Assembly: GCF_019801965.1 (NCBI RefSeq)
Contig: NZ_JAHVIA010000004.1
Location: 62,001 to 126,000, forward strand
Direction of reading: 5' to 3'
DNA from: Salipiger bermudensis
Lineage (GTDB): Bacteria > Pseudomonadota > Alphaproteobacteria > Rhodobacterales > Rhodobacteraceae
Length of the DNA stretch: 64,000 nucleotides
Shown here: piece by piece, positions 30,481 through 62,923 of the stretch
Numbering within the stretch: position 1 is the first letter of the stretch
Layout: the number at the start of each line of letters is the position of its first letter
Notes under the pieces: generated by a model
Told to the model about the DNA's origin: nothing
The model's input: only the letters and a program-made list of their open reading frames with translations
The model's database searches: none
Position numbers and translations under genes: made by a program

Positions 30481-30565
30481 GCGGGCGTGGTGGAATGGTA
30501 GACACAAGCGACTTAAAATCGCTAGGGCCTAGCCCGTGCGGGTTCGAGTCCCGCCGCCCGCACCA
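30481..30565 (+). tRNA. tRNA-Leu (anticodon UAA)
   Basis: An 85-nt class II tRNA with encoded CCA. The acceptor arms GCGGGCG and CGCCCGC pair perfectly; the anticodon loop CTTAAAA lies between AGCGA and TCGCT (anticodon TAA); a long variable arm GGGC-CTA-GCCC and the T arm GCGGG-TTCGAGT-CCCGC follow. A small hairpin (CGCCG-CATC-CGGCG) right after the CCA could end transcription. Class II tRNA genes such as tRNA-Leu are frequent island integration sites, and an accessory polysaccharide locus starts directly downstream. Confidence 0.97.
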
Positions 30566-30578
30566 CGCCGCATCCGGC
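30536..30578 (+). repeat. Possible attachment site (left), 3' end of tRNA-Leu plus flank
   Basis: This 43-nt stretch matches 62821-62863 at 36 of 43 positions without gaps. It includes the T arm, the acceptor 3' strand, the CCA and 13 nt beyond (CGCCGCATCCGGC). The cluster of exact matches CCGCCCGCACC and CGCCGCATCCGGC is what an ancient att duplication would leave. Confidence 0.5.
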
Positions 30579-30692
30579 GGCGTCTCGGTGTCCTGATTCC
30601 TAGCCAAGACTGGCGCGTGTCGCGAGCGTCTCCGCCGCGTTTGCGCATGGCTGCAAGCGGAGCCTTGGCGGGGGCCGCCTGGCCGTTTGCGC

Positions 30693-31664
30693 TCAGGTTT
30701 CCATCTGGCTGGTCTGGCCGACGAACCAGTCATAGGTCGCGGCCAGCCCCGTCTCCAGATCGATCCGTGGCCGCCAGCCCATCGCCGCCAGAACCGACGT
30801 GTCGAGCAGCTTGCGCGGCGTGCCGTCCGGCTTGCTCGGGTCGGTCAGGATCCGGCCCTTGAAGCCGGTGACGCGGGCGATCATGCCAGCCAGCTCGCGG
30901 ATCGAGACATCTTCGCCGCTGCCGATATTGATGTGCGACAGGGTCGGGCGCGTGTTGAGCTTGTGGATGGTCGGCGGCAGGTCGAGCACGTGCAGCGCCG
31001 CGACGGCGAGGTCGTCGACATGCAGGAATTCGCGGCGCGGTGTGCCGGTGCCCCAGATCGTCACCTCCGAAGCCCCCGAGATCGCCGCCTCGTGGAAACG
31101 GCGCATGAGGGCGGGGATGACGTGCGAGTTCTCGGGATGGAAATTGTCGCCGGGGCCGTAGAGATTGCAGGGCATCACCGAGCGGTAGTCGCGGCCATAT
31201 TGCCGGTTGTAGCTCTCGCAGATCTTGATCGCGGCGATCTTGGCGATGGCGTAGGGCTCGTTGGTACGCTCGAGTGTGCCGGTGAGCAGCGCCGACTCGG
31301 GGATCGGCTGCGGCGCGATCCGGGGATAGATGCACGACGAGCCGCATTGCAGCAGGCGCCCGACATCGGTCATGTGCGCGGCATGGATCACGTTCGCCGC
31401 GATCATCAGGTTGTCGTAGATGAATTCGGCCGGGCGGGTGTCGTTGGCGAGGATGCCGCCGACCTTGGCCGCGGCAAGGATCACCATGTCGGGCTTCTCG
31501 CTCCGGAAGAAATCGTTCACCGCGATCTGGTCGCGCAGATCGAGCTCGTCATGGCTGCGGGTGATGAGCTCGACCTCCGGACCCTCGCGCCGCTGCGACA
31601 TGAGGGCCCGCACGATGGCCCGTCCGACCATGCCGCGATGACCGGCAACGAAGAGCCGCGTCAT
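30693..31664 (-). CDS. fcl: GDP-L-fucose synthase
   Basis: A 323-residue SDR enzyme that makes GDP-L-fucose from GDP-4-keto-6-deoxymannose by 3,5-epimerisation and NADPH reduction. The NADP motif [12 protein letters not shown], the [11 protein letters not shown] segment and the catalytic [10 protein letters not shown] (Tyr-x3-Lys) are clear. Its start overlaps the gmd stop (ATGA). Last gene of the gmd-fcl pair, at the left border of the polysaccharide region next to the tRNA gene. Confidence 0.95.
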
Positions 31665-32983: not shown

Positions 32984-35900
32984 TCAGAACAGCGCATCGC
33001 CGGTTTCCACGAAGGCATCGACCCAGTAGTTGGTGGCGTTGTAGCTCTGCGACGGGAACAGCCCGGTGCCGCCCGAGTTGAAGACGCCGTTGCCATTGGG
33101 ATCGGCGGCCGCCACGGCGCTGAGCTCGCCGTCGGCGCCGACCCAGTCGGTGGCGAAGAACTGGCTGCTCGCGACGTAGTTCTGCGTCGTGCCGTAGGAG
33201 GCGATGTAGGTGGTGTCGGCGAGGATCTCGACCGGGGTGTCGAGCGCCGCCACCTGCCAGCCGTCATGGCCGGGTGTGGAGGTGACGGACGCGCTTGCCA
33301 GAAGCGTGCCGCTGGCATCCCAGAGATTGAGCGTCCTTGTGTCGGTATCGCCCGCATCCTCGGTGCCGCGCCAGTAGCGCAGCCCGGTGACCTGGCCGCC
33401 GGTGTCCGAGGTGAACTTCACCCCGAGCTCGTAATCGGTGGGGTCGTTGGTGACGGTGAGCGCCGGGGCGTCGCCGGCGGTGAAGAGGGTGGAGACCCCT
33501 GCGCCGGTCTCGGGGGCCACGTCGTCCACGGTCACGGTGACCGCCAGCTCGGTGGCCGGGTTGTCGCCATCCGAGGCCGACAGGATCAGCTCGTAGCTGT
33601 TGTCGCCGTCGAGATCGGCCGGGGCCTCGAAGTCCGGGGCGCTGTTGAAGACCAGCGCGTTGCTGCCGTTCAGGCTGAAGAGCGCGGCGTCGTCGCCCCC
33701 GGAAATGGCGAAGACCAGCTCGTCGCCCTCGGGGTCGACCGCGGTGACCGTGGTCACGTAGGTCTGGTTCTCGGGCAGGGCGAAACTGCTGCCGCCCATG
33801 GTGAAGCTGGGGGCGTCGTTTGCGATCGGTTCCGACCAGAAGCCGACATCCACCCAGTAGTTCGAGTTGGCGTAGCTCTGGGTCGGGAACGCGCCGGTGC
33901 CGCCGGCCGCGTAGACCCCTGCGCTGGCCGGGCTGCCGAGAATGCCCGATGGCCCGGTATAGGCCGAGGCGAAGAAGTTCTGGTCGACCACGTAATTCTG
34001 CGTGGTGCCGTAGGAGACGGTATATTCCTGCCCGGCGGCGACCTGGACCGGCGTGTCGAGCACGCCGACCTGCCAGCCGCTCTGCCCGGCGGCCGAGGTG
34101 ACCGAGGTCGAGGCGATCAGCGCGCCGGTGTTATCCCAAAGATTGAGCACGCGGGTGTCGATGTCATCGGCGTCTGCCGCGCCGCGCCAGTAGCGCAGGC
34201 TGGTGATCTCTCCCGGCTGGGCTGTGGTGAAGCGGGTGCCGAGCTCGTAATCGGTCGGGTCGGAGACGATTTCGCTCACGGGCGCCGCGCCGCTGGCAAA
34301 GAGCGTCGATGCGAGGAAGTCGGTCTCGTTCGGATCGTCGGTCACCGTCACCGTCACCGACTGGGTCGTGGCGGTGTTGATCTGATCCAGGGCACCGAGC
34401 AGGAAGCTATAGACATTGTCTCCGTCGCTGTCGTCCGGCGCCTCGAAATCTGGCGGCTTGATGAAGCTGATCTTTCCGGTTGTGCCATCGATGCTGAACA
34501 GGGAGGCATCCGCCCCGCCCGCGATCGAGTAGAAGACCGGGTCGCCATCGATGTCGCTCGCCTCCGCGGTTGCGGCGAGGGGGCTGTTCTCGGTGACGCT
34601 GAACTCGGTGGGCGAGCTGAAGACCGGCGCGTCGTTCTGGATCTCGCCGGGCTCGAAGGTGACATCGACCCAGTAGCCGGTGCTCTGGTAGCTCTGCGTC
34701 GGCAGAATGTCTCCGCTCCCGGTGGCGAAGACCCCGCCGCTCGTCGCCGAGACGCTCATCAGGTCGAAGGGATCGGCATAGGAGTCGCCGAACTGGCCCA
34801 CCGTGCCAACGTAGTTGTCGGCGGTCTCGTAGGAGACGATGTAGGTCTGCCCCGCGAGCAGCTGGGCGGGGCTGTCGAGCGCGGCGGTCTGCCAGCCGCT
34901 CTCGTTGATCCCGGAGGTGAAGGTGACGGTGCCGAGCAGCACGCCATCGGAGGTCCAGAGCCGCCCGGTCCGCACATCGGTGTCGTCGGAATCGGTCGCC
35001 GCGCGGTAATAGTGCAGCTCGGTGACCAGACCGGCGGAGGAGGTGGTGAACTTCGTGCCGATCTGCAAGGCGCCGCCGGCGTCATACATGACCCCGTCAA
35101 ACACCGTCCACGGGTTGAACAGCGTCACCGCCTCGGGGGTTGTCGTCTCGACCAGTTCGCTGTTGAGGGTCGAGGTCACCGGCATGTTGAGGCTGTCATC
35201 GATCGCCCGGACGAGGATCTCGTAGCTTTGCACGGCGCTGGGCGCCCAGCTGTAGGACCAGTTGGTGGTGCCGGAGGCCACGCGCCAGGTGGTGCCGCCA
35301 TCGAAGGACAGCTCGACCACGGCCACCACGCCGTCATCGGTCAGCGGATCGCCGTCATCGTCGGTCGCGGTTCCGGTGAGCAGCACCGGCTGCCCGGCGG
35401 CCACCGTCTCCGGGAGGTCGTCGATGGTGGCGACGGCGGCGACGAAATCGTTCGACGCGCTGGCCCGCACCAGCCCCTGAGAGGCGAGGAACGCATCCGC
35501 GACGGCGGGCTGGATGCCCATGTCGGCAAACATGTTCACGGTGAACTGCTGGATCGCGAGGTTCTCGATGTTCGCGGTGTACGGCTCGTTGTCGTGGTTG
35601 TTGGTCAGGGCCCAGGTCCAGAACACGGTGCCGGCCCCGAAGACGAGTGCGCCGCTGTCGGCCCGGTAGAGCGACAGGTTGTGCGTCGCCACGCCCGGCT
35701 GCACGGTGTTGCCCTGATCGACGAGGATGCTGCTCCACGGGATCGTTGTGTCCGAGAGCTTGATCAGGCCGGAGGGCCGGTAATCATCCTCGGGCGAGGT
35801 GTTCCATTCGTAGCCGAGGATGCCGGGCGCGATGTCGAGCGCGCCGCCGTTGGCGATGTCGGTGTCGCGCCAGACCCGCAGCACCGAGTAGTCGGCGGGC

Positions 35901-37135
35901 ACGTCGAGCGCGCCGCCGAACTCGCCGGTGGCGTCCGGTCCGAAGAGCTGGCCGGTGAGCGAGTTCTCGGCGCAGTTGCACAGATCCGGCTGGCCCGAGA
36001 GCGTCGGCCGATCCTCTTCGCTGCCGGCCAGGGGGTTGCCGATGAAGCGGTCGTCGCGCCAGGTGCCGGTCCAGATGTCGGTCGGGTCGAGATCGTAATA
36101 ATCGTCGGGGCCGGCGGCGGGGTCCTGCACCGCCCAGGTCTCCTTGTAGCAGACCAGCGTGCGGTACTCCTGGCCATCGACGAAACTGGTCTCCCAGCGG
36201 GTCTTCCAGTAGACTTCATTGCCGCTCCAGAACAGCAGGTTGACGCCGTCGTCGCGGGCTTCCTCGACATTGTAGCGCTGCTCGCCCGACCAGTACTCGT
36301 CATGCCCGACCGAGAGGAAGGACTCGTACTTCTTGAGGTAGTCGGCCCCGAGCCTGTCGGTGTCGACGCCGCCCATGTAGCTGACATCGTAGCCGTTCAT
36401 CTCGAGCCAGTAGATCGCCGCGTACTCGGCGCCGAAGAGGTAATCCTGTGCCCCGGCGGCCGGGCCGCCCTGTTCGCCGTTGATGCCGCGGGTGATGAAG
36501 GGGCGGTTGTAGCTGACCGCGTAGGCGCGATCCTGCGCGAAGTCGCCGGCGCTATCGATGTCGGGATGGTCGATGGTGCCGCTCGAGTCGCCGTAGAAGT
36601 TGGCGCCGATCTCGCCATTGTTGCCGATCCAGCCGTTATAGGCGTGCCAGGTGGTGTCGGAGGTCTGCAGCACGATGTCGGCCGCGCGGTCGTCCTCGCG
36701 CACCACGAAGGGGATCTGGTTGACCGCGCCCTCGATCGGGTTGCCGGACTCGTCGAGCCGCTGGACCCGAGCCAGGTAGACCCCGGCGACCGCGTCCTCT
36801 GGAATCTCCCAGGTGTCGGTGACGCTCCAGTTGCCGGCATCGGCGGTGCCGGTGGTGGCGTCGAACATGGCATCGGGCTGCACCGTGCCGTTCGTGTTGG
36901 TCCACGAGGCCACCATGCGGGCGCCATCGCCGCCGTAATAGCCGAGCCGGAAGACCTCGACCATGTAGTCGCTGCCGGGGTCGTCGCTGATGTTGATCTT
37001 GAAATCCACATCGTTGCCGGCGTTGACGCTGAAGTCGGTCGTGTAGCCTTCGATCACGGTCGAATGCTCCACATCCCAATAGGATTGCGGCATGCGCCCG
37101 TCGGTGCGGGCGTTTTCCTCTACGATCTGGTTCAT
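32984..37135 (-). CDS. Large dimethylformamidase-like protein with three DUF4082 and two cadherin-like modules
   Basis: A 1383-residue acidic protein. Residues 1-about 555 resemble the large (beta) subunit of N,N-dimethylformamidase (for example RLGYYGGDGARMV, FLSVGHDEYWSGEQR, LLFWSGNEVYWKTRW). An Ig-like domain follows (about 562-660), then DUF4082 (about 672-825), a cadherin-like repeat (828-945), DUF4082 (945-1098), a second cadherin-like repeat (1100-1205) and a third DUF4082 to the end; each DUF4082 contains a QSY-x4-YWVD type motif. No Sec signal peptide is seen at the N-terminus (MNQIVEENARTDGRMPQSYW), so export by a type I system is possible. It lies in a fucose-containing polysaccharide locus; a cell-surface or matrix role is inferred. 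Whether the N-terminal domain is an active amidase is unknown. Confidence 0.85.
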   Translation of the reverse strand: MNQIVEENARTDGRMPQSYWDVEHSTVIEGYTTDFSVNAGNDVDFKINISDDPGSDYMVEVFRLGYYGGDGARMVASWTNTNGTVQPDAMFDATTGTADAGNWSVTDTWEIPEDAVAGVYLARVQRLDESGNPIEGAVNQIPFVVREDDRAADIVLQTSDTTWHAYNGWIGNNGEIGANFYGDSSGTIDHPDIDSAGDFAQDRAYAVSYNRPFITRGINGEQGGPAAGAQDYLFGAEYAAIYWLEMNGYDVSYMGGVDTDRLGADYLKKYESFLSVGHDEYWSGEQRYNVEEARDDGVNLLFWSGNEVYWKTRWETSFVDGQEYRTLVCYKETWAVQDPAAGPDDYYDLDPTDIWTGTWRDDRFIGNPLAGSEEDRPTLSGQPDLCNCAENSLTGQLFGPDATGEFGGALDVPADYSVLRVWRDTDIANGGALDIAPGILGYEWNTSPEDDYRPSGLIKLSDTTIPWSSILVDQGNTVQPGVATHNLSLYRADSGALVFGAGTVFWTWALTNNHDNEPYTANIENLAIQQFTVNMFADMGIQPAVADAFLASQGLVRASASNDFVAAVATIDDLPETVAAGQPVLLTGTATDDDGDPLTDDGVVAVVELSFDGGTTWRVASGTTNWSYSWAPSAVQSYEILVRAIDDSLNMPVTSTLNSELVETTTPEAVTLFNPWTVFDGVMYDAGGALQIGTKFTTSSAGLVTELHYYRAATDSDDTDVRTGRLWTSDGVLLGTVTFTSGINESGWQTAALDSPAQLLAGQTYIVSYETADNYVGTVGQFGDSYADPFDLMSVSATSGGVFATGSGDILPTQSYQSTGYWVDVTFEPGEIQNDAPVFSSPTEFSVTENSPLAATAEASDIDGDPVFYSIAGGADASLFSIDGTTGKISFIKPPDFEAPDDSDGDNVYSFLLGALDQINTATTQSVTVTVTDDPNETDFLASTLFASGAAPVSEIVSDPTDYELGTRFTTAQPGEITSLRYWRGAADADDIDTRVLNLWDNTGALIASTSVTSAAGQSGWQVGVLDTPVQVAAGQEYTVSYGTTQNYVVDQNFFASAYTGPSGILGSPASAGVYAAGGTGAFPTQSYANSNYWVDVGFWSEPIANDAPSFTMGGSSFALPENQTYVTTVTAVDPEGDELVFAISGGDDAALFSLNGSNALVFNSAPDFEAPADLDGDNSYELILSASDGDNPATELAVTVTVDDVAPETGAGVSTLFTAGDAPALTVTNDPTDYELGVKFTSDTGGQVTGLRYWRGTEDAGDTDTRTLNLWDASGTLLASASVTSTPGHDGWQVAALDTPVEILADTTYIASYGTTQNYVASSQFFATDWVGADGELSAVAAADPNGNGVFNSGGTGLFPSQSYNATNYWVDAFVETGDALF

Positions 37136-37198: not shown

Positions 37199-38482
37199 TC
37201 AGGCGCTCGGACGCTGCTCTGCCCGCCCCTGTCCCTGGCGACGCAACGGAAAGGCCGGTCGCGAGGGCGGGCGCGGGCGCACGCGGCAGGCGTCGAGCGC
37301 CGCCACGATCGCGGCCCGGTTCATCTCGCCCGTGCCGATGAACACGATCTCCTGTCGACGGTCGCCATAGGGCGCCTGCCAGTGCGCCGCGATGCGCGCC
37401 CGCGCCTCGGGCTCCACCGGCCAGGCCGGCCGCGGCACCGAGGCCCACCAGCGGCCGGAGGTGCGGATCGTGCTGAGGCAGCCCGATAGGCTGATCTCCA
37501 TCACCTTCGCGGGCATCTGCGCGGCCCAGTAATGGCCCTTGGCGCGCAGCACGCCATTGAAGAGGCAGGGCGCGCCGCCGCCGAAGATGTGCTGGATGCG
37601 GGCGGCATCGAACGGCTCGCGAGCGCGGTAGACGAAGGACGTCAGGCCGTATTCCTCGGTCTCCGGGACGTGGTCGGCAAAGCCGTTGAGCTCCTTGAAC
37701 CACATCGGATGGCTGCGGGCGTGGCCGGGGCTGAACAAGCCCGTTCCGAGCAGCTCGGAGGGATCGACCTCCCCGAACTCCGTCTCGATCAGGCGGGCGT
37801 CGGGATTGAGCGCCCGGATGACCTGGCATGCCTTCGCGGTGCGCTCGGGCCCGGCCGTGCGCACCTTGTTGAGAACGATGATGTCGGCAAACTCGATCTG
37901 GTCGACCAGAAGCTCCACCAGCGTGCGCTCGTCCTCGTCGTCGCGCGCCTCGGTGCGGTCGCGCAGGAAGTCGCGGCTTTCGAAATTGGCCAGGAGGTTC
38001 GCGGCGTCGACCACCGTCACCATCGCATCGAGGCGGGTGATGTCGGCGAGGCTGGCGTGGCTCTCGTCGCAGTATTCGAAGGTCGCGGCCACCGGCAGCG
38101 GCTCCGAGATGCCGGTGGACTCGATCAGCAGGTAGTCGAACCTGCCGGCCTCGGCCAGGCCTCGCACCTCGACCAGCAGGTCATCCCTCAGGGTGCAGCA
38201 GATACACCCGTTGGTCAGCTCGACGAGCGTCTCCTCGGTGGCGCTCAGCCCGGCGCCGCCCGAACGGATCAGCTCGGCATCGATGTTCACCTCCGACATG
38301 TCGTTGACGATCACGGCGACCCGCATGCCGCCGCGATTGTTGAGGATCCGGTTGATCAATGTCGTCTTTCCGGCCCCGAGGAAGCCGGAGAAAACGGTTG
38401 TTGGCAGCCTCTTTTCCGCCGCGCCGGATCCTGCACTCACGGTCGCAGGCGCTCGGCTGGCGTGCGCGTCATCGGGCATCAT
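37199..38482 (-). CDS. CobW/COG0523-family GTPase (metallochaperone-like)
   Basis: A 427-residue G3E GTPase with P-loop SGFLGAGKTTLINR, the metal-binding NGCICCTLRDD (CXCC) and ESTGISEPLPV. The guanine-recognition motif reads NKVR rather than NKxD. A CobW C-terminal domain follows (about residues 285-395), then a basic Pro/Arg-rich tail. Members distribute zinc, cobalt or other metals in the cytoplasm; the target here is unknown. The ATG at 38482 (with a second ATG next to it) has GGAG upstream; the frame is open further up but without a suitable start. Its presence inside a polysaccharide locus is unusual. Confidence 0.88.
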   Translation of the reverse strand: MMPDDAHASRAPATVSAGSGAAEKRLPTTVFSGFLGAGKTTLINRILNNRGGMRVAVIVNDMSEVNIDAELIRSGGAGLSATEETLVELTNGCICCTLRDDLLVEVRGLAEAGRFDYLLIESTGISEPLPVAATFEYCDESHASLADITRLDAMVTVVDAANLLANFESRDFLRDRTEARDDEDERTLVELLVDQIEFADIIVLNKVRTAGPERTAKACQVIRALNPDARLIETEFGEVDPSELLGTGLFSPGHARSHPMWFKELNGFADHVPETEEYGLTSFVYRAREPFDAARIQHIFGGGAPCLFNGVLRAKGHYWAAQMPAKVMEISLSGCLSTIRTSGRWWASVPRPAWPVEPEARARIAAHWQAPYGDRRQEIVFIGTGEMNRAAIVAALDACRVRPRPPSRPAFPLRRQGQGRAEQRPSA

Positions 38483-38894
38483 CGGTCTCGTCCTCTTCTC
38501 CTTGTGGTGCCCAGCAGCCAGCCGCCTGCGTCGCCGAAATTGGCGGACAGGCCGGGCGGCGTTGTCCCTGAGGGTCACCACGACCCCTGCATTTCCCCGG
38601 TGAAGTCTGCGCGAACTCCCTGTGCGTCCGACGCCGACAGTCACGATCTTGCGGCGTCGTTGCTGTGCCGGACAACTCTCCTTGGGGGCAGCGCCGCTAG
38701 TCCTTTCGGCGCAGCGGGCGGCGGCGGTACGCCCTTTTGCCATCCGGTGCGGCCCCGGGAAGGCTTGCTCCGCACCGACAGCACGCGCCGTGCCGGAACA
38801 TCTGCCCGGCAAGAGAAGCACGGCCTCGAAGACGCGCGGGCGCAGCTCGGAACGGGACGGAGGAAGGCATGGGGGCATAGGGCGGCGGGCCCGC
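38483..38894. other. Intergenic region upstream of the CobW gene
   Basis: A 412-nt stretch between the stop of the Wzz gene and the start of the CobW gene, both on the minus strand. I see no credible gene. A short GC palindrome (GGCGGGCCCGCC) right after the Wzz stop could be a weak terminator. The rest probably holds the CobW promoter; no Zur-like AT-rich dyad is visible. Confidence 0.5.
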
Positions 38895-42178: not shown

Positions 42179-42243
42179 CTGTCGTCCTCGGGTCTTGGGC
42201 GAACCGCGCGACGGACCCCTGTTTCCGCCTGCCTCCGCCAAAC

Positions 42244-53318: not shown

Positions 53319-54491
53319 CTACTGGGCCGCGGTCCGGTGGCAGGCGCCGACACTCTCGGCGATGCACTCGGCAAGCGCCTCAACCACGCGGTTCAGATCC
53401 TCTTCGCTCATCTGGGCGTAGAGCGGCAGCAGCATGGTGTGGTCCCGCGCCATTTCTGAATGCGGCAGGGGGAAGGCGAGGGGCAGGTCGGCCTGGGCGG
53501 CTTCCTGGTGCATGTTCATGATCCCGCGCCGCGTGGCGATGCCGCGATCGAGCATGCCCTGCATCACCTGCCGCTGGTCAATGTGGGTGTCGAGCCGCAC
53601 CGGGTAGCTTTGCCAGTTCGACCGCGCCCATGCCGGCTCGACCGGTGCCGTGACACCGTCGACCCGGGCGAGCGCGTGGGCATAGCAGGCGGCGAGCCTG
53701 CGCCGCGCCCGGATGATCCCCGGCAGCCGCTCGAGCTGCTTGCGGCCCACGGCGGCCTGGATGTCGGTCATCCGATAGTTGTAGCCGCGCACCGGGTAGG
53801 CTTCGAAGATGACCTTCGGGCTGCCGTGCCGCGCGGTGTCGGAGACCGACATGCCGTGCTGGCGCCAGAGCCGGAATTTTGCGTCGAGCTCGGGCTGATT
53901 GGTGGTCAGCATGCCGCCCTCGCCGGTGGTGATCACCTTCCGGGGGTGGAAGGAAAAGCAGACGACATCGCCGATCGGCGCGCCGACACGGGTCCATCGA
54001 TCGGTGTGGACGATCTCCGATCCGATGGCGCAGGCCGCGTCCTCGACGATGGACAGGCCATAGCTTTTCGCCAGCGGCACGATGGTGGCCAGATCACAGG
54101 GCATGCCCATCTGGTGCACCACGAGGATCGCGCGGGTGCGCGGCCCGATTGCCTCGGCCACGGCGGCGGGATCGATGTTGTAGCCGTCGGCCTCGATGTC
54201 GACGAAGACCGGCGTGGCACCGCATTGCCGGATCGCGTTGGCGCCGGCGATGAACGAATGGCTGACGGTGATGACCTCGTGGCCGGGGCCGACGCCGAGA
54301 CCCTGCAACGCCAGGTGCAGGGCCGTGGTGCAGTTCGACACCGCGCAGGCATGGCGGGCGCCGGTATAGCTGGCGAACTCTTTCTCGAAGGCCGCCACCT
54401 GCGGCCCTTGGGAGACCCATCCGCTGAGCACGGCCGCACTTGCCGCCTGGGCCTCCTCGTCGCCGAGGAGCGGTTTCGCGATCGGGATCAT
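53319..54491 (-). CDS. DegT/DnrJ/EryC1-family sugar aminotransferase
   Basis: A 390-residue PLP-dependent sugar aminotransferase. The PLP lysine lies in SFHPRKVITTGEGGML, and SNCTTALHLALQGLGVGPG and IVEDAACAIGSE are typical. It likely makes an amino sugar from a keto nucleotide sugar; together with the PglD-like acetyltransferase it could give an acetamido sugar. The ATG at 54491 overlaps the stop of the epimerase gene; GGAGG lies upstream. It is the last gene of a five-gene operon. Confidence 0.9.
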   Translation of the reverse strand: MIPIAKPLLGDEEAQAASAAVLSGWVSQGPQVAAFEKEFASYTGARHACAVSNCTTALHLALQGLGVGPGHEVITVSHSFIAGANAIRQCGATPVFVDIEADGYNIDPAAVAEAIGPRTRAILVVHQMGMPCDLATIVPLAKSYGLSIVEDAACAIGSEIVHTDRWTRVGAPIGDVVCFSFHPRKVITTGEGGMLTTNQPELDAKFRLWRQHGMSVSDTARHGSPKVIFEAYPVRGYNYRMTDIQAAVGRKQLERLPGIIRARRRLAACYAHALARVDGVTAPVEPAWARSNWQSYPVRLDTHIDQRQVMQGMLDRGIATRRGIMNMHQEAAQADLPLAFPLPHSEMARDHTMLLPLYAQMSEEDLNRVVEALAECIAESVGACHRTAAQ

Positions 54492-55489
54492 TGCGCCGCG
54501 ACCTCCGGGGCTTGCAGGGCGCGTTCGCTGCGCCACCACTCGATCAGGTGGGCCAGGCCCTCGCGCGGCGGAATCTGTGCGACGAAGCCAAGATCGCGCG
54601 ATGCGGCGGAACAGTCGGCCAGGCGCCGCGGCACCGGGTTGACCTTGCGCTCGGGGGCGTGGGTCGGGATCAGGTCGGGCCGTCCCATCCCCTCAGAGAT
54701 CAGCCGCGCGAGATCGAGCAGGGTGGTCTCGGTTTGCGAGCCGATGTTGTAGACGCGGTCGCTGGCCGTGCTCTTGGAGGCAAGGATGTTGGCCCGTGCT
54801 ACGTCGCGCACGTCGATCAAATCGAGCGTCTGCTGCCCGTCGCCGAACACGATCGGCGGCTGACCGTCCGCGAGGCGCTCCATCCAGCGCACCATGACCT
54901 CGGTGTATTTGCCGTGCAGGTCCATGCGCGCGCCGAAGACGTTGAAGTAGCGCAGCGCCACATAGTCGAGCCCGTACATGTCATTGAACGACCGCAGCAG
55001 ACCCTCGCCCATGCTCTTGGCCGCGCCGTAGAGGGTGCGGTTGCCGTAGGGCGGGTCGGATTCCGGGGTCGGGAAATGCGTGGCGTTGCCGTAGATCGAC
55101 GCGGAGGAGGCCATCACCACCTTCGAGACGTTGCGCTGCACGCAATCCTGAAGCAGGTCATAGGTGGCCTGCACCATGACCGACATCGCCTCGTCGGGCT
55201 CGCTGGCGCAATGGGTGATCCTGAGCGCCGCCTGGTGAAAGACCACGTCGCTCTCGTCGACGAGTGAGCGCATCAGCGCGCGGTCGCGGATGTCGCCGTT
55301 GATCAGGCGCACGCGCCCGGAGGGCAGGGCCCCGGCGAGGTTCTCGGGGCGGCCGCGGACCATGTTGTCGACGACCAGAACCTCCTCGACGTCCTCCTCC
55401 AGGAGCAGGTCGACAATGTGCGATCCGATGAAGCCGCTGCCGCCGGTGACGAGAACGCGAGCGCCGCTAAGGCTGTTTTGCGCGGTCAT
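54488..55489 (-). CDS. NAD-dependent epimerase/dehydratase (SDR, UDP-sugar epimerase-like)
   Basis: A 333-residue extended SDR: VLVTGGSGFIGSHIVDLLL binds NAD, and ASSASIYGNATHFPTPE with the catalytic TLYGAAKSMGEGL follow. LRYFNVFGARMDLHGKYTEV resembles UDP-glucose/UDP-GlcNAc(A) 4-epimerases of the WbpP/TviC type. Substrate not certain. Four-base overlaps at both ends place it in the middle of an operon for an amino sugar. Confidence 0.88.
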   Translation of the reverse strand: MTAQNSLSGARVLVTGGSGFIGSHIVDLLLEEDVEEVLVVDNMVRGRPENLAGALPSGRVRLINGDIRDRALMRSLVDESDVVFHQAALRITHCASEPDEAMSVMVQATYDLLQDCVQRNVSKVVMASSASIYGNATHFPTPESDPPYGNRTLYGAAKSMGEGLLRSFNDMYGLDYVALRYFNVFGARMDLHGKYTEVMVRWMERLADGQPPIVFGDGQQTLDLIDVRDVARANILASKSTASDRVYNIGSQTETTLLDLARLISEGMGRPDLIPTHAPERKVNPVPRRLADCSAASRDLGFVAQIPPREGLAHLIEWWRSERALQAPEVAAQ

Positions 55490-56613
55490 GCTGCCGCCTC
55501 CTTCTTGGACTTGACCTTGGGGGCGCTGAGCCGGTTCACCGTCTCCGCGACCTGCTCGACTTCGCCCTCGGTGAGTTCGGGGAAGATCGGCAGCGACAAC
55601 GTGAGGTTGGCATAGGCCTCGGCGATCGGGAAACTGCCCGGGCCCTTGGACAGGTTGGCGTAGGCCGGCTGGAAATGGACCGGGCGCGGGTAGTGGATAT
55701 TGGTCGCGATGCCCTCGGCCTCGAGCTGCTTGCGCAGCTTGTTCCGCTTGTCGGCCTTGATGGCGTAGACGTGGTAGACGTGATCGCCATCCTCGGACGG
55801 TGCGGGCCGCGCGACGTCCTCCGACAGCAGCGCGTCATAGGCCTTTGCGACGCGGCGGCGCCCGCCGTTCCAGTCGTCGAGATGCTTGAGCTTCACCCCC
55901 AAAACCGCGCCCTGGATCGCTTCCATGCGATAGTTGTAGCCCTGCATGACATGCACCGAGCGCTCGAACTGGCCCCAGTCGCGCAGCGCGCGGAGCTTGG
56001 CGGCGAAGTCGGAGTCGTTGGTGGTGACCGCGCCGCCTTCGCCCGCGGCGCCGAGGTTCTTGCCGGGGTAGAAGCTGAAGCAGCCGGCGGTGCCGAAGGC
56101 ACCGGCGCGGACGCCGTCGCGGGTCGCCCCGTGGGCCTGCGCGGCATCCTCGATGAGGGTGACGCGGTTGGTCTCGGCGATGTGCCGCAGGGTGGTCATG
56201 TCCGCGAGCCGGCCGTGGAAGTGCACCGGCAGGATGGCCTTGGTGCGCGGCGTGATCGCGGCGGCGCATTTGATCGGGTCCATGGTCATGGTGTCGGGGC
56301 TGACATCGACGAAGACCGGTTTCGCGCCGCAGTAGAGGATCGCCGCGACCGTCGCCACGAAGGTTGTCGGCACGGTGATCACCTCGTCGCCCATGCCGAC
56401 GCCGGCGGCGAGCAGGGCGAGATGCAGCGCGGAGGTGCCGCTGTTGACGGCGACCGCGTGACGGGTGCCGCAATAGCGCGCGAAGTCCTCCTCGAAGCGC
56501 TCCACATGCGCGCCGAGAACATAGTGGCTGCTGCGCAGCGCCGACAGCACCGCCGCTTCGACATCCTCGCCGATGGCTGCGTATTGCCGCTTGAGATCGA
56601 GAAAGGGGATCAT
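55486..56613 (-). CDS. DegT-family aminotransferase, WbpE-like
   Basis: A 375-residue PLP sugar aminotransferase with NSGTSALHLALLAAGVGMGD, LIEDAAQAHGA and the PLP lysine in SFYPGKNLGAAGEGG. Sequence style and neighbours (an oxidoreductase and an acetyltransferase directly upstream) fit WbpE, which aminates the 3-keto form of UDP-GlcNAcA. Overlaps both neighbours by four bases. Confidence 0.9.
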   Translation of the reverse strand: MIPFLDLKRQYAAIGEDVEAAVLSALRSSHYVLGAHVERFEEDFARYCGTRHAVAVNSGTSALHLALLAAGVGMGDEVITVPTTFVATVAAILYCGAKPVFVDVSPDTMTMDPIKCAAAITPRTKAILPVHFHGRLADMTTLRHIAETNRVTLIEDAAQAHGATRDGVRAGAFGTAGCFSFYPGKNLGAAGEGGAVTTNDSDFAAKLRALRDWGQFERSVHVMQGYNYRMEAIQGAVLGVKLKHLDDWNGGRRRVAKAYDALLSEDVARPAPSEDGDHVYHVYAIKADKRNKLRKQLEAEGIATNIHYPRPVHFQPAYANLSKGPGSFPIAEAYANLTLSLPIFPELTEGEVEQVAETVNRLSAPKVKSKKEAAA

Positions 56614-57629
56614 GAGGCTTCCTTCAGGGTGACGAGATCAACGGGGTGGCCGCGCAGGCGGCAGGAGCGGGAGGCGGCGGCCAGCATCTCGACGACGCGA
56701 AGCCCGCCGAGCCCGTCGGTGAGCGGGGCGGTCCCGCTTTCGATGGCGCGGGCGAATTCCTGCAATTCGGTCTGCAACGCCTCCTTGGAGGACAGCGCGG
56801 GAGCGTACATGTCGCCGATCCGGTAGGACACGAGGTGCTCGTAGGGCTTGTCGTTGCTGGTGGCGCCGCGGTCGTAGATCTTGATCTTCTCGCTGGTCTG
56901 CATGTCGTCGTAGACCACCATCTTGCGGCTGCCGCCGATCAGGGTCTGACGGATCTTAACCGGGGCCAGCCAGTTCACGTTGAGATTGGCCATCATGCCG
57001 CCATCGTAATGGATCGTCAGGTGGGCCATGTTCTCGGGGCTGCCCGCGACGAAGCTCGCGGCACAGGCGGAGATCGCCACCGGCGCCTGTCCGAACAGGT
57101 GATCCATGATCGCGAAATCATGCACCGCGAGATCCCAGATCACGTTCACGTCGCGCTGAAACAGGCCGAGGTTCACGCGGGTGGAGTCGTAGTAGTAGAG
57201 ATCGCCGAGCTCGCCCTGCTGCACGAGCTCCGAGACCTGCCGGATCGCGGGCGTGTAGACGAAGGTGTGGTCGACCATCAGCGTGAGATTGCGCCGCGCG
57301 GCCTCTTCCACGAGTTCGTGCGCCTGGGCGACGGTCTCGGTCATCGGCTTTTCGACGAGCACGTGCTTGCCCGCCTTCAGCGCCGCCATCGCGAGGGCGA
57401 AATGGGTGTGCACCGGAGTCGCGATCAGTACCGCGTCGACGGTCTTGTCGCTGAGCATTTGGTCGACATCCGAGACCAGCTTGGCGGCAGGGTGGCGCAG
57501 TGCGGCGCGCTGACGGGCCTGCGGGGAGGGGTCGGCGATGACCTGAACGCTGGCGACGCCGCTCTCGGCGGCCGCGCGGGCAAGGTTGGGGCCCCAGTAG
57601 CCGTAACCGATGATACCGACGCCGATCAT
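56610..57629 (-). CDS. Gfo/Idh/MocA-family oxidoreductase, WbpB-like
   Basis: A 339-residue NAD(P)-dependent sugar oxidoreductase. VGIIGYGYWGPNLARAA is the Rossmann motif, and VLVEKPMTETVAQAHEL carries the EKP motif. Next to WbpE- and WbpD-like genes it probably oxidises the C3 of a UDP-N-acetylhexosaminuronate (WbpB role). The ATG at 57629 overlaps the stop of the acetyltransferase gene. Confidence 0.88.
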   Translation of the reverse strand: MIGVGIIGYGYWGPNLARAAAESGVASVQVIADPSPQARQRAALRHPAAKLVSDVDQMLSDKTVDAVLIATPVHTHFALAMAALKAGKHVLVEKPMTETVAQAHELVEEAARRNLTLMVDHTFVYTPAIRQVSELVQQGELGDLYYYDSTRVNLGLFQRDVNVIWDLAVHDFAIMDHLFGQAPVAISACAASFVAGSPENMAHLTIHYDGGMMANLNVNWLAPVKIRQTLIGGSRKMVVYDDMQTSEKIKIYDRGATSNDKPYEHLVSYRIGDMYAPALSSKEALQTELQEFARAIESGTAPLTDGLGGLRVVEMLAAASRSCRLRGHPVDLVTLKEAS

Positions 57630-58144
57630 GTCCGTGCCCCCGCGGCAAGAAGCCCGTGAGTCTCGGCCGCGGGGGCGCTGCGGGTGTCGCCGACCACCGA
57701 GGCCGGTACGCCGCTGACGATGGCGTAGTCGGGAACATCGCGTGTCACCACCGCCCCGGCGCCGATCAGCGCGTGGCGGCCGATGCGCAGCCCGGGCAGG
57801 ATCGTTGCGTTGGAGCCGATCGAGGCACCGTGCTCGACCACCACCGCTTCGCACTGCCAGTCGTCGCCGCCCTTCAGCGTGCCGTCGGGGTTGGTGCTTG
57901 CCGGGTAGCGGTCATTGGTGAACATGACGCCGTGGCCGATGAAGACCTCGTCTTCGAGGGTGACGCCCTCGCAGATGAAGCTGTGCGAGGAGATCTTGCA
58001 GCGCGCGCCCACGACGCAGCCGGCCTGGATCTCGACGAAGGCGCCGATGCGGCTCTCCGCGCCGATCTCGCACCCGTAGAGGTTGACGAGTGTCGGCTGA
58101 AAGATGCGCACATCGGTCGCTATAGTGCAATTTTCTATGGCCAT
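57626..58144 (-). CDS. Hexapeptide-repeat acyltransferase, WbpD-like
   Basis: A 172-residue left-handed beta-helix acetyltransferase (CTIATDVRIFQPTLVNLYGC; GAFVEIQAGCVVGARCKISS; FTNDRYPAS). It matches WbpD-type UDP-sugar N-acetyltransferases that acetylate the 3-amino group. The ATG at 58144 fits the family start; an in-frame start at 58255 would add an unrelated basic leader. First gene of the operon wbpD-like, wbpB-like, wbpE-like, epimerase, DegT. Confidence 0.87.
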   Translation of the reverse strand: MAIENCTIATDVRIFQPTLVNLYGCEIGAESRIGAFVEIQAGCVVGARCKISSHSFICEGVTLEDEVFIGHGVMFTNDRYPASTNPDGTLKGGDDWQCEAVVVEHGASIGSNATILPGLRIGRHALIGAGAVVTRDVPDYAIVSGVPASVVGDTRSAPAAETHGLLAAGART

Positions 58145-58335
58145 TCCTGAGTCACCCCGTTTCCTGTCGGACCTCGATTCAGCTCGAAGCTTGTGTGAAA
58201 AGAGTGTCCGCGGAAGGGGATGCAGGAAATCGTCCGAACGGAGGTGGGCGTTCATCCAATGGAATAATCAGGCGGTGCCAAGCTTGCCATTCGCGCAAAT
58301 GGAGCGACTTTGGGCGGCCCGGGCAGGGCCGGGGT

Positions 58336-58365: not shown

Positions 58366-58372
58366 GTCCTGC

Positions 58373-61336
58373 TCAGAGCAGGCTTTCGTCTGCGGAGGCG
58401 GTGCTTTCGATCAGGCCGATCTCGAAGCCGGCATAGCCCGCGATCTCCTTCGCATGCGCGGTCTCCATGTCTCGCGACTGCTCCTCTGTGATGCAGAGGA
58501 AGGCCCTGTCGGGCTCAAGATCCATGGTTTGCAGCGTCGCCGTGTTGCTGCCGTTGGTGGTCTGCATCTCCGCGAGGAAGACGAACTCGTCAGAGCCGAA
58601 TTCGCCATCGAAAGCGATCTCGGTCGGGCGCGACGAGAGGGCGGCGGTTGAGACCGCTGCGACCGAGCCGGACGAGGGGCTGCCGCCTGCCTCGATGGCG
58701 ATCCAGTCGAAGGACTGGGCCTCGATCTTGGCCGGCTTGTCTTCCTGCGAGAAGAACCGCGCTCTGAACCCGCTTTCGTCGATGCTGCGCAGCCGATCGG
58801 TGATGGCGATGGCGTTGGTCTCGCCAATCGCCTGGCCGAACACCACTGGGGCCTCGCCGAAGGCGCCCGTGTCAAAGGCGATGCGCTCGTAGCTGTCGCC
58901 GATCATGGCGTCGCCCGCCGAGATCGTGCGCCCATCGGCAAGCGTGTGCGTCCCGCTTTCGACCGCCAGCCAGTTGAGGGTCTCGGCGGCGTGGGTGCCG
59001 TCGAGATAGTCCCACTCGTCGATCTGGTACTCGAAACCGGTGTCGCTGACGTTGCGCACCCGGATGCTGTAGGGCTCGGGATCGTTGGCCGTGCCGCCGC
59101 CCATCACCACCGTGGGATCGTCGAGCGCCTCGGTGAAGGTGACGCGGTGCCACTGATCCGGCCCGTCCTGAGCGCTGGAGACCACGCCCGCCTCGCCGAT
59201 CACGTCCTGCGGCTCCGAGCCGGGTTCGGCGGGGGGCTCCGCCGATGCCTCTTCGGTCTCGAGGACGAGATCCACCCAGTAGTTCGAGCTCTTGTAGCTC
59301 TGGTCGGGGAAGGTGCTCTGGCCGGTGCCATAGGCGTAGACGCCGGCATCGGCCTCGACGCTGATCGGCCCGAAATCCTGGGCGGTCTCGAAGTGATCCT
59401 CGCTGACCGAGTATCCCCCCGAGGGCGCGTTGTAGGAAACGGTGTAGCTCTCGCCTGCGGACAGCGCGACCGGCTTGTCGAACGAGATCGTCTGCCAGCC
59501 CGCCTCGGTGACGACGGCATCGGCCCGCGCGATCGACTCGCCGCTTGCAGACCACAGATTGATGGTCTGCGGCCCGGTATTGCCCGGCGCGACATGGATG
59601 CGCAGCGCCTGAAGCGATGCATCTTCGTCGGCCGAGAAGCGCAGCCCGAGCGTCACCGCCCAGGTGTCGGGGTCGTTCTGGATCTCTGGTACGGCGCTGT
59701 CATCCCAGATCTGGAACAGATCGCCATCGTCCGCCGGACGCGACGGCCGGCTCGGGGTCTCGGGCTCGACCGGGGTCTCCGTGGCCGGTGCTTCGGCGGC
59801 CTCGACCGTCACCGAGACGGTGGCGGTGTCGGTGCCGCCCTGACCGTCGGAAACGGTGTAGCGGAACTGGCCGGTGCCGGAGAAACCACTCGCCGGCGTG
59901 AACAGGATGGTGTCCGCCGTCGGCCGCGATACGGTCCCGTTCTGCGCGCCGCCGACCGAGGCCAGCGTCAGCGCATCGCCGTCTGCGTCACGGTCATTCG
60001 CGAGAATATCGGCCACCCGGATCGACACGCTCTCATCCTCGGAGGTGGAGAAGCCGCTGTCGTCCGTTGCCGCTGGGGCGCTGTTCTCAGGTTCGGGCTC
60101 CGGCTCGGGCTCAGGTTCGGGCTCGGGTGTCGGCGGCGGCGTCGTGTCCGAGGCGCCGCTCTCGTAGGCGCCGAGATCGACGATCCCTCGTTCCCGGAGG
60201 TTGCCGAACAGGTCGGTCGGCGACAGGCCATAGTCATCGGTTCCCGCGTCGATCGCGGGGGAATCGCTGGCGAGGCGGAAGTCTCCCGGCGCATCCACGA
60301 AGCGCGGATCCACTCCGAGCATGTTGCCGTTCGCGGCCGAGGGGGCCGCGTTGTTGCCATCGGTGCGCACCGACGCGGCGCCCGCGATTCCGTTGAAGGT
60401 GAGGTTGTTGGCCCAGATGACATTTTCGTTGACGTAGCCACCGTAAGACGTGCTGTCGATCGCGGTGTTGTCGGAGTTGATCGACGGGTCGGCCACGGCG
60501 ATGTTGTTGACGAAGGTGTTGTCGCTCGACTGCGAGTTGCTGATCTCGCCACGCCAGGTGCCGGTGTTCAGCAGGTCCTGGTTGTTGTGCCAGGCTGTGT
60601 TGCCGCGCACCGTGACGTTGTCGCTCCAGACCACCTGGATGCCCTTGCCGCCGTTCTGGTAGACGAGGTTGTTCTCGACCAGGGTGGGGAAGGTGTAGCT
60701 GGGGTAGCCGGAGGCCTGCGTGCTCTGGAAATCATCGATAATGATGCCGTTGCCGTCAGTGTGCTGGCCGGAATAGGTCACGTTGTCGTAGGAGACATTG
60801 TCGCGCACGATGGTCCGGAAGCCGGGTGTCGTGGTGTCGCCCGAGACATTGCGGTTCTCGTAGATCGAGATTCCCGAGAACCAGCCGTCGGACGCGTTCG
60901 AATAGGTCGTGTTCCCCTCGACCAGAATGAACTCCGAGTAGTTGAACTGGATGCCCGACTCGCCGCTGCCGTGGATCGTATTGTCGAGCACCTCGATGTG
61001 ATGCACGCTGTTCGCCTCGATGCCATCCCCTGGCGCATCGGCGATTTCGAAGCCCGAAACAGTGACGTAATTGGCGTTGATGCTGATCCCGTTCCACGCG
61101 CTCTGCGGTGGGTCGAGCAAAACGCTGCCCGGCTGTTCCGCGCGCAGCACGACATTCGCGCTGCTATCACCGCCGGTGTTCACGTTCAGAGCTTCCTGAT
61201 ACGTCCCCGCGCGTACCACGACCTCGTCTCCCGGGCGCAATCCGGCATCGAGTGCGTGCTGGATCGTCCGGAAGGGGGTTGCGGAGCTCCCGTCCGCGTT
61301 GTCGCTTCCCGTTGGGGAAACATAATAGAGCGTCAT
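58373..61336 (-). CDS. Parallel beta-helix protein with DUF4082 module
   Basis: About 987 residues. Residues 1-400 form a right-handed parallel beta-helix (start LYYVSPTGSDNADGSSATPF; many EVLDNTIHGSGESGIQFNYS-type turns; end SPAIDAGTDDYGLSPTDLFG), as in polysaccharide lyases or epimerases. A Pro-Glu linker follows (PEPEPEPEPEPEPE, about 405-420), then a cadherin-like domain (420-510), DUF4082 (540-690), and a C-terminal beta domain (700-987) with WDYLDGTHAAETLNWLAVES, seen in large secreted marine proteins. No Sec signal at this start, so type I export is possible. GGAGG lies about 12 nt before the ATG. The frame is open for 432 nt upstream, to an ATG at 61768. Confidence 0.82.
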   Translation of the reverse strand: MTLYYVSPTGSDNADGSSATPFRTIQHALDAGLRPGDEVVVRAGTYQEALNVNTGGDSSANVVLRAEQPGSVLLDPPQSAWNGISINANYVTVSGFEIADAPGDGIEANSVHHIEVLDNTIHGSGESGIQFNYSEFILVEGNTTYSNASDGWFSGISIYENRNVSGDTTTPGFRTIVRDNVSYDNVTYSGQHTDGNGIIIDDFQSTQASGYPSYTFPTLVENNLVYQNGGKGIQVVWSDNVTVRGNTAWHNNQDLLNTGTWRGEISNSQSSDNTFVNNIAVADPSINSDNTAIDSTSYGGYVNENVIWANNLTFNGIAGAASVRTDGNNAAPSAANGNMLGVDPRFVDAPGDFRLASDSPAIDAGTDDYGLSPTDLFGNLRERGIVDLGAYESGASDTTPPPTPEPEPEPEPEPEPENSAPAATDDSGFSTSEDESVSIRVADILANDRDADGDALTLASVGGAQNGTVSRPTADTILFTPASGFSGTGQFRYTVSDGQGGTDTATVSVTVEAAEAPATETPVEPETPSRPSRPADDGDLFQIWDDSAVPEIQNDPDTWAVTLGLRFSADEDASLQALRIHVAPGNTGPQTINLWSASGESIARADAVVTEAGWQTISFDKPVALSAGESYTVSYNAPSGGYSVSEDHFETAQDFGPISVEADAGVYAYGTGQSTFPDQSYKSSNYWVDLVLETEEASAEPPAEPGSEPQDVIGEAGVVSSAQDGPDQWHRVTFTEALDDPTVVMGGGTANDPEPYSIRVRNVSDTGFEYQIDEWDYLDGTHAAETLNWLAVESGTHTLADGRTISAGDAMIGDSYERIAFDTGAFGEAPVVFGQAIGETNAIAITDRLRSIDESGFRARFFSQEDKPAKIEAQSFDWIAIEAGGSPSSGSVAAVSTAALSSRPTEIAFDGEFGSDEFVFLAEMQTTNGSNTATLQTMDLEPDRAFLCITEEQSRDMETAHAKEIAGYAGFEIGLIESTASADESLL

Positions 61337-61760
61337 TTGGTTCTTGCCTCCAATCAGTCTTCTATCGTCGGAGTGGTCGACGATACTGAAAGCAAATATC
61401 CTCCTGATCTTTGTCGGCACATGGAGCGCAAGGGGGGGCGCGACCCATGCTGGCGGCGATTTGCCGATGCCGGTTTTCGTCACGCCGCCGTCTGCTAGGA
61501 GGTCTCCGTTTATTCTCGTTTTATCGTATATATTTAAGTGAGCTTCTGGCGCTGCGTCCGGGGCCGCTGACAGCATTGTGCAGCCCAGCGAAACGATCGT
61601 CAGAAGGGCGCCGAATAGGACGATAAGGTACCGGATTGAAACGCCTTTCCGGTGATGGTCGTGCCGTGCGCGTGGATCGGCAATGAACCGCTGCCGAGCG
61701 CCTGCTCGACAGCCTGCCAATCTCCAGATGGCCCTTTTGCCCTGTTGCGAGCGTTCCCGC
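61337..61760. other. Region upstream of the beta-helix gene with in-frame hydrophobic segment
   Basis: A 424-nt stretch on the minus-strand side of the beta-helix start. The same frame stays open up to an ATG at 61768 that overlaps the WecG-type gene, and encodes a basic leader and one membrane-helix-like stretch (SIRYLIVLFGALLTIVSLGC). Part of it (61390-61560) is AT-richer than the surroundings. It may be an N-terminal anchor, or a promoter region with a fortuitous open frame. Confidence 0.4.
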
Positions 61761-62576
61761 TCAGCCATTCACCGACCGGTTGGGCACCGGAAAACGCCGC
61801 AGGCCGCTTCTCTGGAGGGCGAGCAGCCAGAGATAGCTCGGCACGATGCGACCGTAGCGACGCCAGAGCCTCCTGGGCTCCACGGCGAGCCTGAACAGCC
61901 ATTCGAGACCGGCGCGCTGCATCCATCCCGGGGCCTGGCGGGTGTTGCCTGCGTGGAAGTCGAAGGCCGCGCCGACGCCGATCAGCAGCGGCGCCTCGAG
62001 CCTGTCGCGCACGCGGGCCATCCAGAGCTCCTGCTTGGGAGCGCCAAGGCCGACCCAGACGATATCGGGGTTCGCTGCGTTGATACGGCGCAGGTCCTCG
62101 GCTTCCTCCTCGGTGCTCAGCGCGCGAAACGGCGGGGCGTGCGTGCCGACGATCGTTGCCTGCGCGAACTTCGCCCCGAGCTTCGACTCGAGCGTCGCGA
62201 GCGTGGCGGGGGTCGCGCCGTAGAGGTAGTGCCGCAGCCCCGGCTCCTCGAACATCGCCAGCATCAGGTCGGGCCCGTAGACGCGCCCGGCGCCTTGGAA
62301 TCCCCTGCGGCGGAGTTCCCAGACAAGAGGCATGCCGTCAGGCGTCACGAGGAGCGCCTGGTTGATCGCGGCGCGAAGCGCGCCGTCACTCTGGCTGTCG
62401 ACCACGCCGTGGGCGCCACAGACACAGACATAGCCCCGTTCGTCCCGGGCGATGGCCTGGGTGAGGCGGTTCACGGCGGTTGCAAGATTCAGCGCCGACA
62501 CCTTGATCCCGAGGAGGCTGATCTCACTCGTGGTGACGGGGGGCAACGCGATCGCTGCCGTATCGGGCTGAGGCAT
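61761..62576 (-). CDS. WecG/TagA/CpsF-family glycosyltransferase
   Basis: A 271-residue GT26 transferase. Diagnostic segments are VCVCGAHGVVDSQ, LVTPDGMPLVWELRRRGF, RVYGPDLML, YLYGATPATLATLESKL and the C-terminal WVGLGAPKQELWMAR. Members add ManNAc, ManNAcA or related sugars to lipid-linked intermediates. The ATG at 62576 has AAGGA upstream; the longer frame to 62675 gives a low-complexity leader. It lies near the right border of the polysaccharide region. Confidence 0.92.
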   Translation of the reverse strand: MPQPDTAAIALPPVTTSEISLLGIKVSALNLATAVNRLTQAIARDERGYVCVCGAHGVVDSQSDGALRAAINQALLVTPDGMPLVWELRRRGFQGAGRVYGPDLMLAMFEEPGLRHYLYGATPATLATLESKLGAKFAQATIVGTHAPPFRALSTEEEAEDLRRINAANPDIVWVGLGAPKQELWMARVRDRLEAPLLIGVGAAFDFHAGNTRQAPGWMQRAGLEWLFRLAVEPRRLWRRYGRIVPSYLWLLALQRSGLRRFPVPNRSVNG

Positions 62577-62923
62577 GTGAAACGTCCTTCTCGGGGCTTT
62601 GCCGGGATGTTCCGACGAGCTTGGAGAAGGGGCGTTCACAGGAGAAGGTGACCTTTCGGACAGGGAGGACACCAATAGGGGGAATTTCGGGCTGGCCTTT
62701 CACCTATTATCGGGTCGGGCAGGTGTTCGGTCCGCGTCTGGACTGAGCGCGGAGCGGGCGCGATTCCCGATCGATCGACCGGTCGCAAGTTGACCGAGCG
62801 CATCGGCGGAGGCGCCTTTGGTGCGGGTCAGACTCTATCCGCCCGCACCTCGCCGCATCCGGCATTGGTCCGTGAGTGGTGGTCGTTTGGCCGGTCCGGC
62901 GTATCCTGGTGACGCCGTGTGGA
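62577..62923. other. Intergenic region at the right border of the polysaccharide locus
   Basis: A 347-nt gap without a gene. It contains the promoter side of the WecG-type gene and, at 62821-62863, the partial copy of the tRNA-Leu 3' end. No integrase fragment is visible. Confidence 0.6.
62821..62863 (+). repeat. Possible attachment site (right), degenerate copy of tRNA-Leu 3' end
   Basis: This stretch (GTGCGGGTCAGACTCTATCC, then GCCCGCACC, T, CGCCGCATCCGGC) aligns without gaps to 30536-30578, 36 of 43 identical. The mismatches cluster in the T loop and the adjoining 3' side of the T stem; the acceptor strand and 13 nt of 3' flank are almost intact, but the second half of the post-tRNA hairpin is missing. 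It has no tRNA body upstream, so it is a fragment. Confidence 0.55.

Follow-up and report, generated by a model that had tools for sequence, protein, structure and literature searches.

Genomic islands and prophages of the tyrosine-integrase type that reside in tRNA genes have an intact tRNA at one end, a copy of its 3′ end at the other, and a content that varies among relatives. Roseobacter 'biofilm plasmids' carry surface-polysaccharide genes as movable cargo. Here we examined a 64,000-nt stretch of the Salipiger bermudensis genome (GCF_019801965.1, contig NZ_JAHVIA010000004.1, positions 62,001 to 126,000; referred to as the window), in which a polysaccharide locus lies between tRNA-Leu(TAA) and a degenerate copy of the 3′ end of this tRNA. 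Because this repeat is unique in the genome, the contents following the tRNA vary among relatives, and the same gene module occurs elsewhere in Salipiger mucosus and on a plasmid, we conclude that the window holds a tRNA-Leu genomic island of a known kind with an unusually portable polysaccharide cargo. Its likeness to the biofilm plasmids is one of general description rather than of gene level, and the window locus differs from them in being chromosomal and situated at a tRNA. The boundaries of the locus are as follows:

30481..30565, plus strand: intact tRNA-Leu(TAA) (ARAGORN), the 3′ end of which is the left repeat copy
30536..30578, plus strand: left copy of the 43-nt repeat, comprising T arm, acceptor 3′ strand, CCA and a 13-nt flank (36/43 to the right copy)
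62821..62863, plus strand: right copy of the tRNA 3′ end, a degenerate attR-like sequence (alignment, BLAST, pattern search)
62864..64000, no strand: right flank in common with the nearest relative (synteny), with a CMD gene, continuing to about 64141

Alignment of 30536-30578 with 62821-62863 confirmed the gap-free 36/43 identities that an earlier note on this DNA had reported. Six of the seven mismatches sit in the T loop or the 3′ side of the T stem, while the last 25 bases (acceptor 3′ strand, CCA and 13-base flank) are alike at 24 positions. Upstream of 62821, the similarity did not extend into the anticodon arm, as 706 of 1000 shuffles scored equally well. When 30460-30640 was compared with the whole genome by BLAST, four matches were obtained, including the query itself and the right copy (84%, E 5e-6); the remaining two (73-74% over 88-97 bases of the tRNA body) are putative other tRNA genes. 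The 24-base core CGCCCGCACCNCGCCGCATCCGGC was found exactly at the two repeat copies only, genome-wide, with one further place at 3 mismatches, and the reversed pattern, used as a control with up to 3 mismatches, gave 0 forward and 2 reverse matches. The 43-nt copy is thus not a common genomic sequence; had it been common, this would, according to the earlier note, have spoken against an island. An ungapped 43-base scan covered the window, the DNA adjoining it on the right and 13 further stretches (338 kb in all; 676,166 positions when both strands are counted); apart from the copies, no position scored above 28/43, the mean being 13.0 and the SD 3.0. This tRNA is the sole one in the window (ARAGORN).

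The locus was compared across 20 Salipiger genomes, that of the window (G000; 4.83 Mb, 32 contigs) and 19 relatives (G001 to G019). In the nearest relative, G019, which is 91% identical to the window in the left flank and 90% in the right flank, synteny ends at 30566 and restarts at 62844, inside the right copy, with differing DNA in between. This DNA spans 10.5 kb, ends in the same right-hand repeat, and encodes a DUF4214/RTX-type protein and a large serine recombinase (Pfam), next to two open reading frames (ORFs) resembling IS110 transposases (named from sequence). Because the right copy of G019 (ACCACGCCGCATCCGGC) matches the left copy of the window over 17 identical bases, the tRNA locus probably had the CCA and the 13-nt flank as its 3′ end ancestrally. 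The first 25 bases past the CCA vary among the genomes (at most 13/25 alike), except for the pair G014/G015 (22/25). As a gapped match to G012 reaches some 23 bases beyond the CCA, part of the left flank of the window may be native.

At least 3.3 kb upstream of tRNA-Leu(TAA) was covered in all 20 genomes, and 14.9-16.5 kb downstream where contigs allowed, contig ends limiting this to 993 bases in G002 and 71 in G014. Lrp and PutA lie upstream of the tRNA in 19 of the 20 genomes, and were not found within 3.5 kb upstream of it in G017. The earlier description of both flanks as housekeeping therefore holds on the left, and only in part on the right, where 1.3 kb with the CMD gene is common with G019 and the conserved backbone begins just outside the window, near 64142 (L044:3643 = 64142). 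This backbone, recognized by a gene labelled DUF212 (a label without a Pfam test) and/or an acetyl-CoA hydrolase-type gene, was found at differing distances from the tRNA in 11 of the 20 genomes, from 0.13 kb to about 51 kb. The distance is 131 bp in G004, 1.6 kb in S. mucosus (G008), 2.6-4.6 kb in G005, G009, G011, G015 and G016, 11.8 kb in G019, about 20.6 kb in G010, about 51 kb in G006, and 33.6 kb in the window genome, as measured in the adjoining stretch L044. Searched with the 21 module proteins (E up to 1e-10), the DNA that follows tRNA-Leu(TAA) gave no match in any of the 19 relatives, 17 of which offered the 14.9-16.5 kb; the same locus at the same place, the other observation that the earlier note had held to be adverse, was thus not encountered. 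In Salipiger, tRNA-Leu(TAA) is in all likelihood a hot spot of integration. Titles and abstract openings in the open-access literature, for the set and terms searched, did not mention this island or hot spot.

A second, exact, same-strand copy of the tRNA-Leu(TAA) 3′ end was found downstream by pattern search in two of the 20 genomes. That of G006 lies 48.6 kb from the tRNA, has 54 identical bases ending at CCA, and is followed by the backbone after 2.5 kb. The insert of G006 is prophage-like: its tyrosine integrase gene (PF00589, E 5e-10) reads toward the tRNA from a distance of about 0.1 kb, and a phage terminase (gpA) is encoded 14 kb in. The second copy of G010 lies 19.5 kb from the tRNA, has 58 identical bases ending at CCA, and is followed after 1.1 kb by the acetyl-CoA hydrolase-type gene; its insert encodes an N6/N4 DNA methylase and a ResIII protein (restriction-modification-type genes), and a local query set found no integrase in it. 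G018 carries a tyrosine integrase (PF00589, E 3.5e-14) beside the tRNA, at the same position as in G006. As in known tRNA-associated islands and prophages, the same tRNA is thus used by inserts with an integrase or exact repeats, here in G006, G010 and G018. The layout of a tRNA-integrated island, as proposed in the earlier note, is therefore correct, being supported by the G019 synteny breaks and by the exact-repeat inserts of G006 and G010; its account of the origin is very probably right as well. Separately, a tRNA-like stretch 73% identical to this tRNA-Leu, with an integrase match less than 200 bp off (G009:C113:762-1450), may mark another tRNA used for integration in the genus.

The module itself was found complete at two other places. 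In S. mucosus DSM 16094 (NZ_KE557273.1; contig C1 of G008) all 21 genes are colinear, in the same order and orientation, and giant protein 1, the first of two giant modular proteins, is 68% identical. Unlike the window locus, the S. mucosus module has no tRNA in the 50 kb around it, and it includes an EpsE-like gene and a methyltransferase. The same 21 genes are also colinear on pLA6_003 (CP031588.1), a 178-kb plasmid of strain La 6, where they lie near parAB-like and replication genes; this locus differs from that of the window in being extrachromosomal and in having the same two extra genes. Strain La 6 is Marinibacterium anthonyi (PMC5934484). Aligned pieces of the window and pLA6_003 are 46-83% identical. 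Gene by gene, 15 of the 21 are nearer to the plasmid, 5 are nearer to S. mucosus and 1 is tied, many of these differences being small and the aligned lengths differing; the comparison, which covers the module genes, suggests, short of proof, that the module moved between genera.

Within the 20 genomes, full-length giant protein 1 was found only in the window genome and S. mucosus, and a Wzy of more than 40% identity in these two and G011, which has a related, rearranged polysaccharide locus on contig C3, with its tRNA-Leu on C1. In 7.6 kb of aligned DNA, the flanking core and S. mucosus share 80% identity; for the module, DNA identity is 78-81% in the conserved enzyme blocks and lower in the variable genes; these sequence identities neither prove nor exclude transfer. 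The place of the S. mucosus locus was considered as the ancestral site and rejected: its right neighbours (a met-type ABC transporter) have their counterparts in the window genome on contig C9, where the 18 kb examined contained no module genes, and for its left neighbours that genome gave no DNA match of full length. Pieces of a second S. mucosus giant-protein-1 gene, one with an in-frame stop, are present at G008:C16:57134-58555.

For the window module we infer a site-specific entry, an order of events and a loss of the integrase as follows. An element with an exopolysaccharide module would have recombined with the 3′ end of tRNA-Leu(TAA), keeping the tRNA whole as the left copy, whereas the displaced 3′ end with its 13-nt flank would have been left as the right copy and have decayed once free of selection. 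The integrase, being absent from the interval, would later have been lost, and the module thereby fixed. That the G019 synteny breaks fall exactly at the two repeat copies supports entry by one such integration, to which we assign a probability of roughly 60%.

Several observations weigh against this single integration. The right copy is degenerate, and the window repeat continues 13 nt beyond the CCA, while those of G006 and G010 stop exactly there. A PF00589 search of the genome gave 10 matches and no tyrosine integrase in or near the interval; the sole match on the window contig (673-1128) falls below the family cut-off and is about 91 kb away. Recombinase families were likewise not matched by any of the 21 module proteins (Pfam), no genome-wide search for serine recombinases having been made. 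In these respects, as in having no exact empty site, the window departs from typical tRNA-associated islands and prophages. The comparison of GC content inside and outside that the earlier note had called for did not set the locus apart: GC is mostly ordinary, at 0.669 inside, 0.686 in the left flank and 0.676 in 13 background stretches of the window genome. Tetranucleotides are mostly ordinary as well. Two local exceptions stand out: the LuxR and acyltransferase genes, with a GC of 0.57 and 0.54, and the final piece of the window in the 4-kb series, shorter than the others (tetranucleotide distance 0.255 versus a background 95th percentile of 0.204). Composition therefore gave no clear signal as proof of foreign origin.

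The alignment of relatives proposed in the earlier note bore out the variable contents and revealed a nearly empty site in G004, with 131 bp to the backbone, but the exact predicted empty junction was not seen in any relative, and the equivalent of 62864-64141 is not there in G004. The tRNA of G004 is thus not adjoined by the 1.3 kb that follows the right copy in the window, and the CMD relative of G004 is on another contig, so that the inserted stretch may have been assembled in more than one step. Moreover, apart from G007 (see below), 8 of the 20 genomes gave no backbone distance, owing to contig ends (G002, G014) or to markers that were rearranged or out of reach (G001, G003, G012, G013, G017, G018). 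G018 may have a third repeat-bounded insert, but its only far copy, at 48.3 kb, is 16 nt long and unconvincing, and the 28 kb that follow showed no backbone marker. G007, with an AsnC-type gene 233 bp past the tRNA, was rejected as an empty site because a 119-nt remnant of a malonyl-CoA decarboxylase gene beside the tRNA (71%, E 1e-11 to G019) indicates a deletion.

The right copy might instead be a relic of an older integration common with G019, the module having come later between the tRNA and this relic via homologous exchange, insertion sequence (IS) action or a recombinase acting in trans. Such a swap of islands would explain why G019 has the same right copy and right flank but a different insert, one that encodes a serine recombinase as well as two IS110-like ORFs, and it would fit the module edges, which lie 127 and 145 bp from the boundaries without a mobility gene between. 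Because the same 13-nt flank on both window copies fits a single crossover, however, and the left side of G019 is without this flank, we regard a swap as rather unlikely.

Ancestral presence of the module at this site in the genus, followed by its loss in the relatives, is very unlikely; the right copy would in that case mark something else. The conserved enzyme genes are indeed as close to S. mucosus (78-81%) as the flanking core DNA (80%), but the S. mucosus module is at a different place, no module gene lies beside this tRNA in the 17 relatives with enough downstream sequence, and full-length giant protein 1 is limited to two of the 20 genomes. As to the right copy being a chance or hairpin-driven resemblance, with the locus arriving by unrelated recombination, its GC-rich and hairpin-capable sequence, its mere 36/43 identities and the clustering of its mismatches might be taken in this sense. 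We reject such an origin as highly improbable, given the genome-wide E of 5e-6, the unique 24-mer, the next best score of 28/43, and the position of the right copy exactly at the G019 synteny breakpoint.

In one genus, a single tRNA serves as the dock for a pathway of surface-polysaccharide synthesis, for a prophage-like element and for genes of restriction type, and the 21-gene pathway is also present on a plasmid of another genus; together, these data make up a concrete case of whole polysaccharide pathways moving between replicons in marine Rhodobacterales. More speculatively, and with considerable doubt, the module could be a portable unit of roseobacter-type bacteria that has no mobility genes itself and travels among plasmids, chromosomal sites and tRNA attachment sites with recombinases borrowed from phages and islands using the same tRNA. 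On this view, cargo for surface polysaccharide, phage and defence would take turns at tRNA-Leu(TAA) as a common dock. Two further loci adjoin other tRNAs. In Jannaschia faecimaris (L099:2043-2221), a related amino-sugar block and giant-protein genes begin about 100 bp after the 3′ end of tRNA-Arg(CCT); a module bounded by this tRNA was rejected, as no second copy of the tRNA end was found in the 25 kb examined. In Cereibacter johrii (L102:1570-1735), a WbaP/epimerase/giant-protein-1 locus adjoins tRNA-Arg(CCG), on the 5′ side of the tRNA.

Between the repeat copies, the 32-kb interval holds 21 polysaccharide or accessory genes, including the two giants and a LuxR-family regulator, in agreement with the accessory character that the earlier note had ascribed to them. 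Between the outermost ORFs of the module and its boundaries lie 127 bp on the tRNA side and 145 bp on the side of the right copy. Assignments are by Pfam, with additional evidence in brackets:

30693-31664, minus strand: GDP-L-fucose synthase-type epimerase (plasmid orthologue annotated fcl)
31661-32974, minus strand: GDP-mannose 4,6-dehydratase (plasmid orthologue annotated gmd)
32984..37135, minus strand: giant modular protein 1, with DMFA2_C, cadherin and three DUF4082 stretches (weak match to acylase structure 8huy)
37199..38965, minus strand: CobW-type GTPase ORF, homology beginning near residue 172-186 (comparison with relatives)
38895-41045, minus strand: Wzz-type chain-length protein
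41042-43474, minus strand: group-1 glycosyltransferase ORF
43413-44801, minus strand: family-2 glycosyltransferase, start over-extended
44654-46081, plus strand: Wzy
46388-47770, plus strand: WbaP-type initiating transferase
47807-48889, plus strand: epimerase
48886-50136, plus strand: glycosyltransferase
50171-51619, plus strand: Wzx flippase
51613..52440, minus strand: LuxR-family regulator (GerE)
52663..53301, plus strand: hexapeptide acyltransferase, EpsM-like (plasmid orthologue annotation)
53319..58255, minus strand: amino-sugar block of two DegT aminotransferases, an epimerase/dehydratase, a Gfo/Idh/MocA oxidoreductase and a hexapeptide acetyltransferase
58373..61768, minus strand: giant modular protein 2, with beta-helix, cadherin-like and DUF4082 parts
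61761..62675, minus strand: WecG/TagA-type glycosyltransferase, the last module gene

The genes expected of a Wzx/Wzy-dependent locus (Wzx, Wzy, a Wzz-type protein and an initiating transferase) are all present (Pfam), and from its gene content the module is predicted to be a Wzx/Wzy-type pathway for an extracellular polysaccharide with fucose and an amino sugar. The exopolysaccharide of S. mucosus contains glucose, mannose, galactose and 13.4% fucose (PMC2953402), and this fucose fits the fcl and gmd genes. The same 21-gene pathway suggests that the window strain may produce a polymer similar to the S. mucosus one, with the window module as its putative source.

Two genes of both colinear relatives were not found in the window (tblastn, E up to 1e-5): an EpsE-like gene for outer-membrane export (Wza/EpsE type), which the relatives have between Wzy and the family-2 glycosyltransferase, and a methyltransferase, which they have beside WecG. 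The corresponding points of the window are 44367-44819 and about 61761-61768; in the relatives, the two genes are at L092:696-1835 and L093:520-1173, and at L238:22453-23739 and 40479-41159. Their absence means that the window locus may depend on another exporter or be decaying. At about 53-63 kb of contig C10 (L239, L240), the window genome has a second polysaccharide locus, in which separate matches to Wzy, Wzx, Wzz-type and EpsE-like proteins were obtained at 25-34%; its EpsE relative is 27% identical.

Two module ORFs stood out further. The group-1 glycosyltransferase ORF at 41042-43474 (810 aa) has matches in two separate glycosyltransferase genes of pLA6_003 and has a GC3 of 0.67, below that of most neighbours; it is perhaps a gene fusion. 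An amidohydrolase-like domain of giant protein 1 weakly matches N-acetyl-(R)-beta-phenylalanine acylase 8huy (E 7e-6), and among 80 relatives of this protein that were examined, 16 have a CobW relative no more than 6 kb away. Our guess is that giant protein 1 and the CobW GTPase might form a metal-dependent enzyme with its own metal chaperone.

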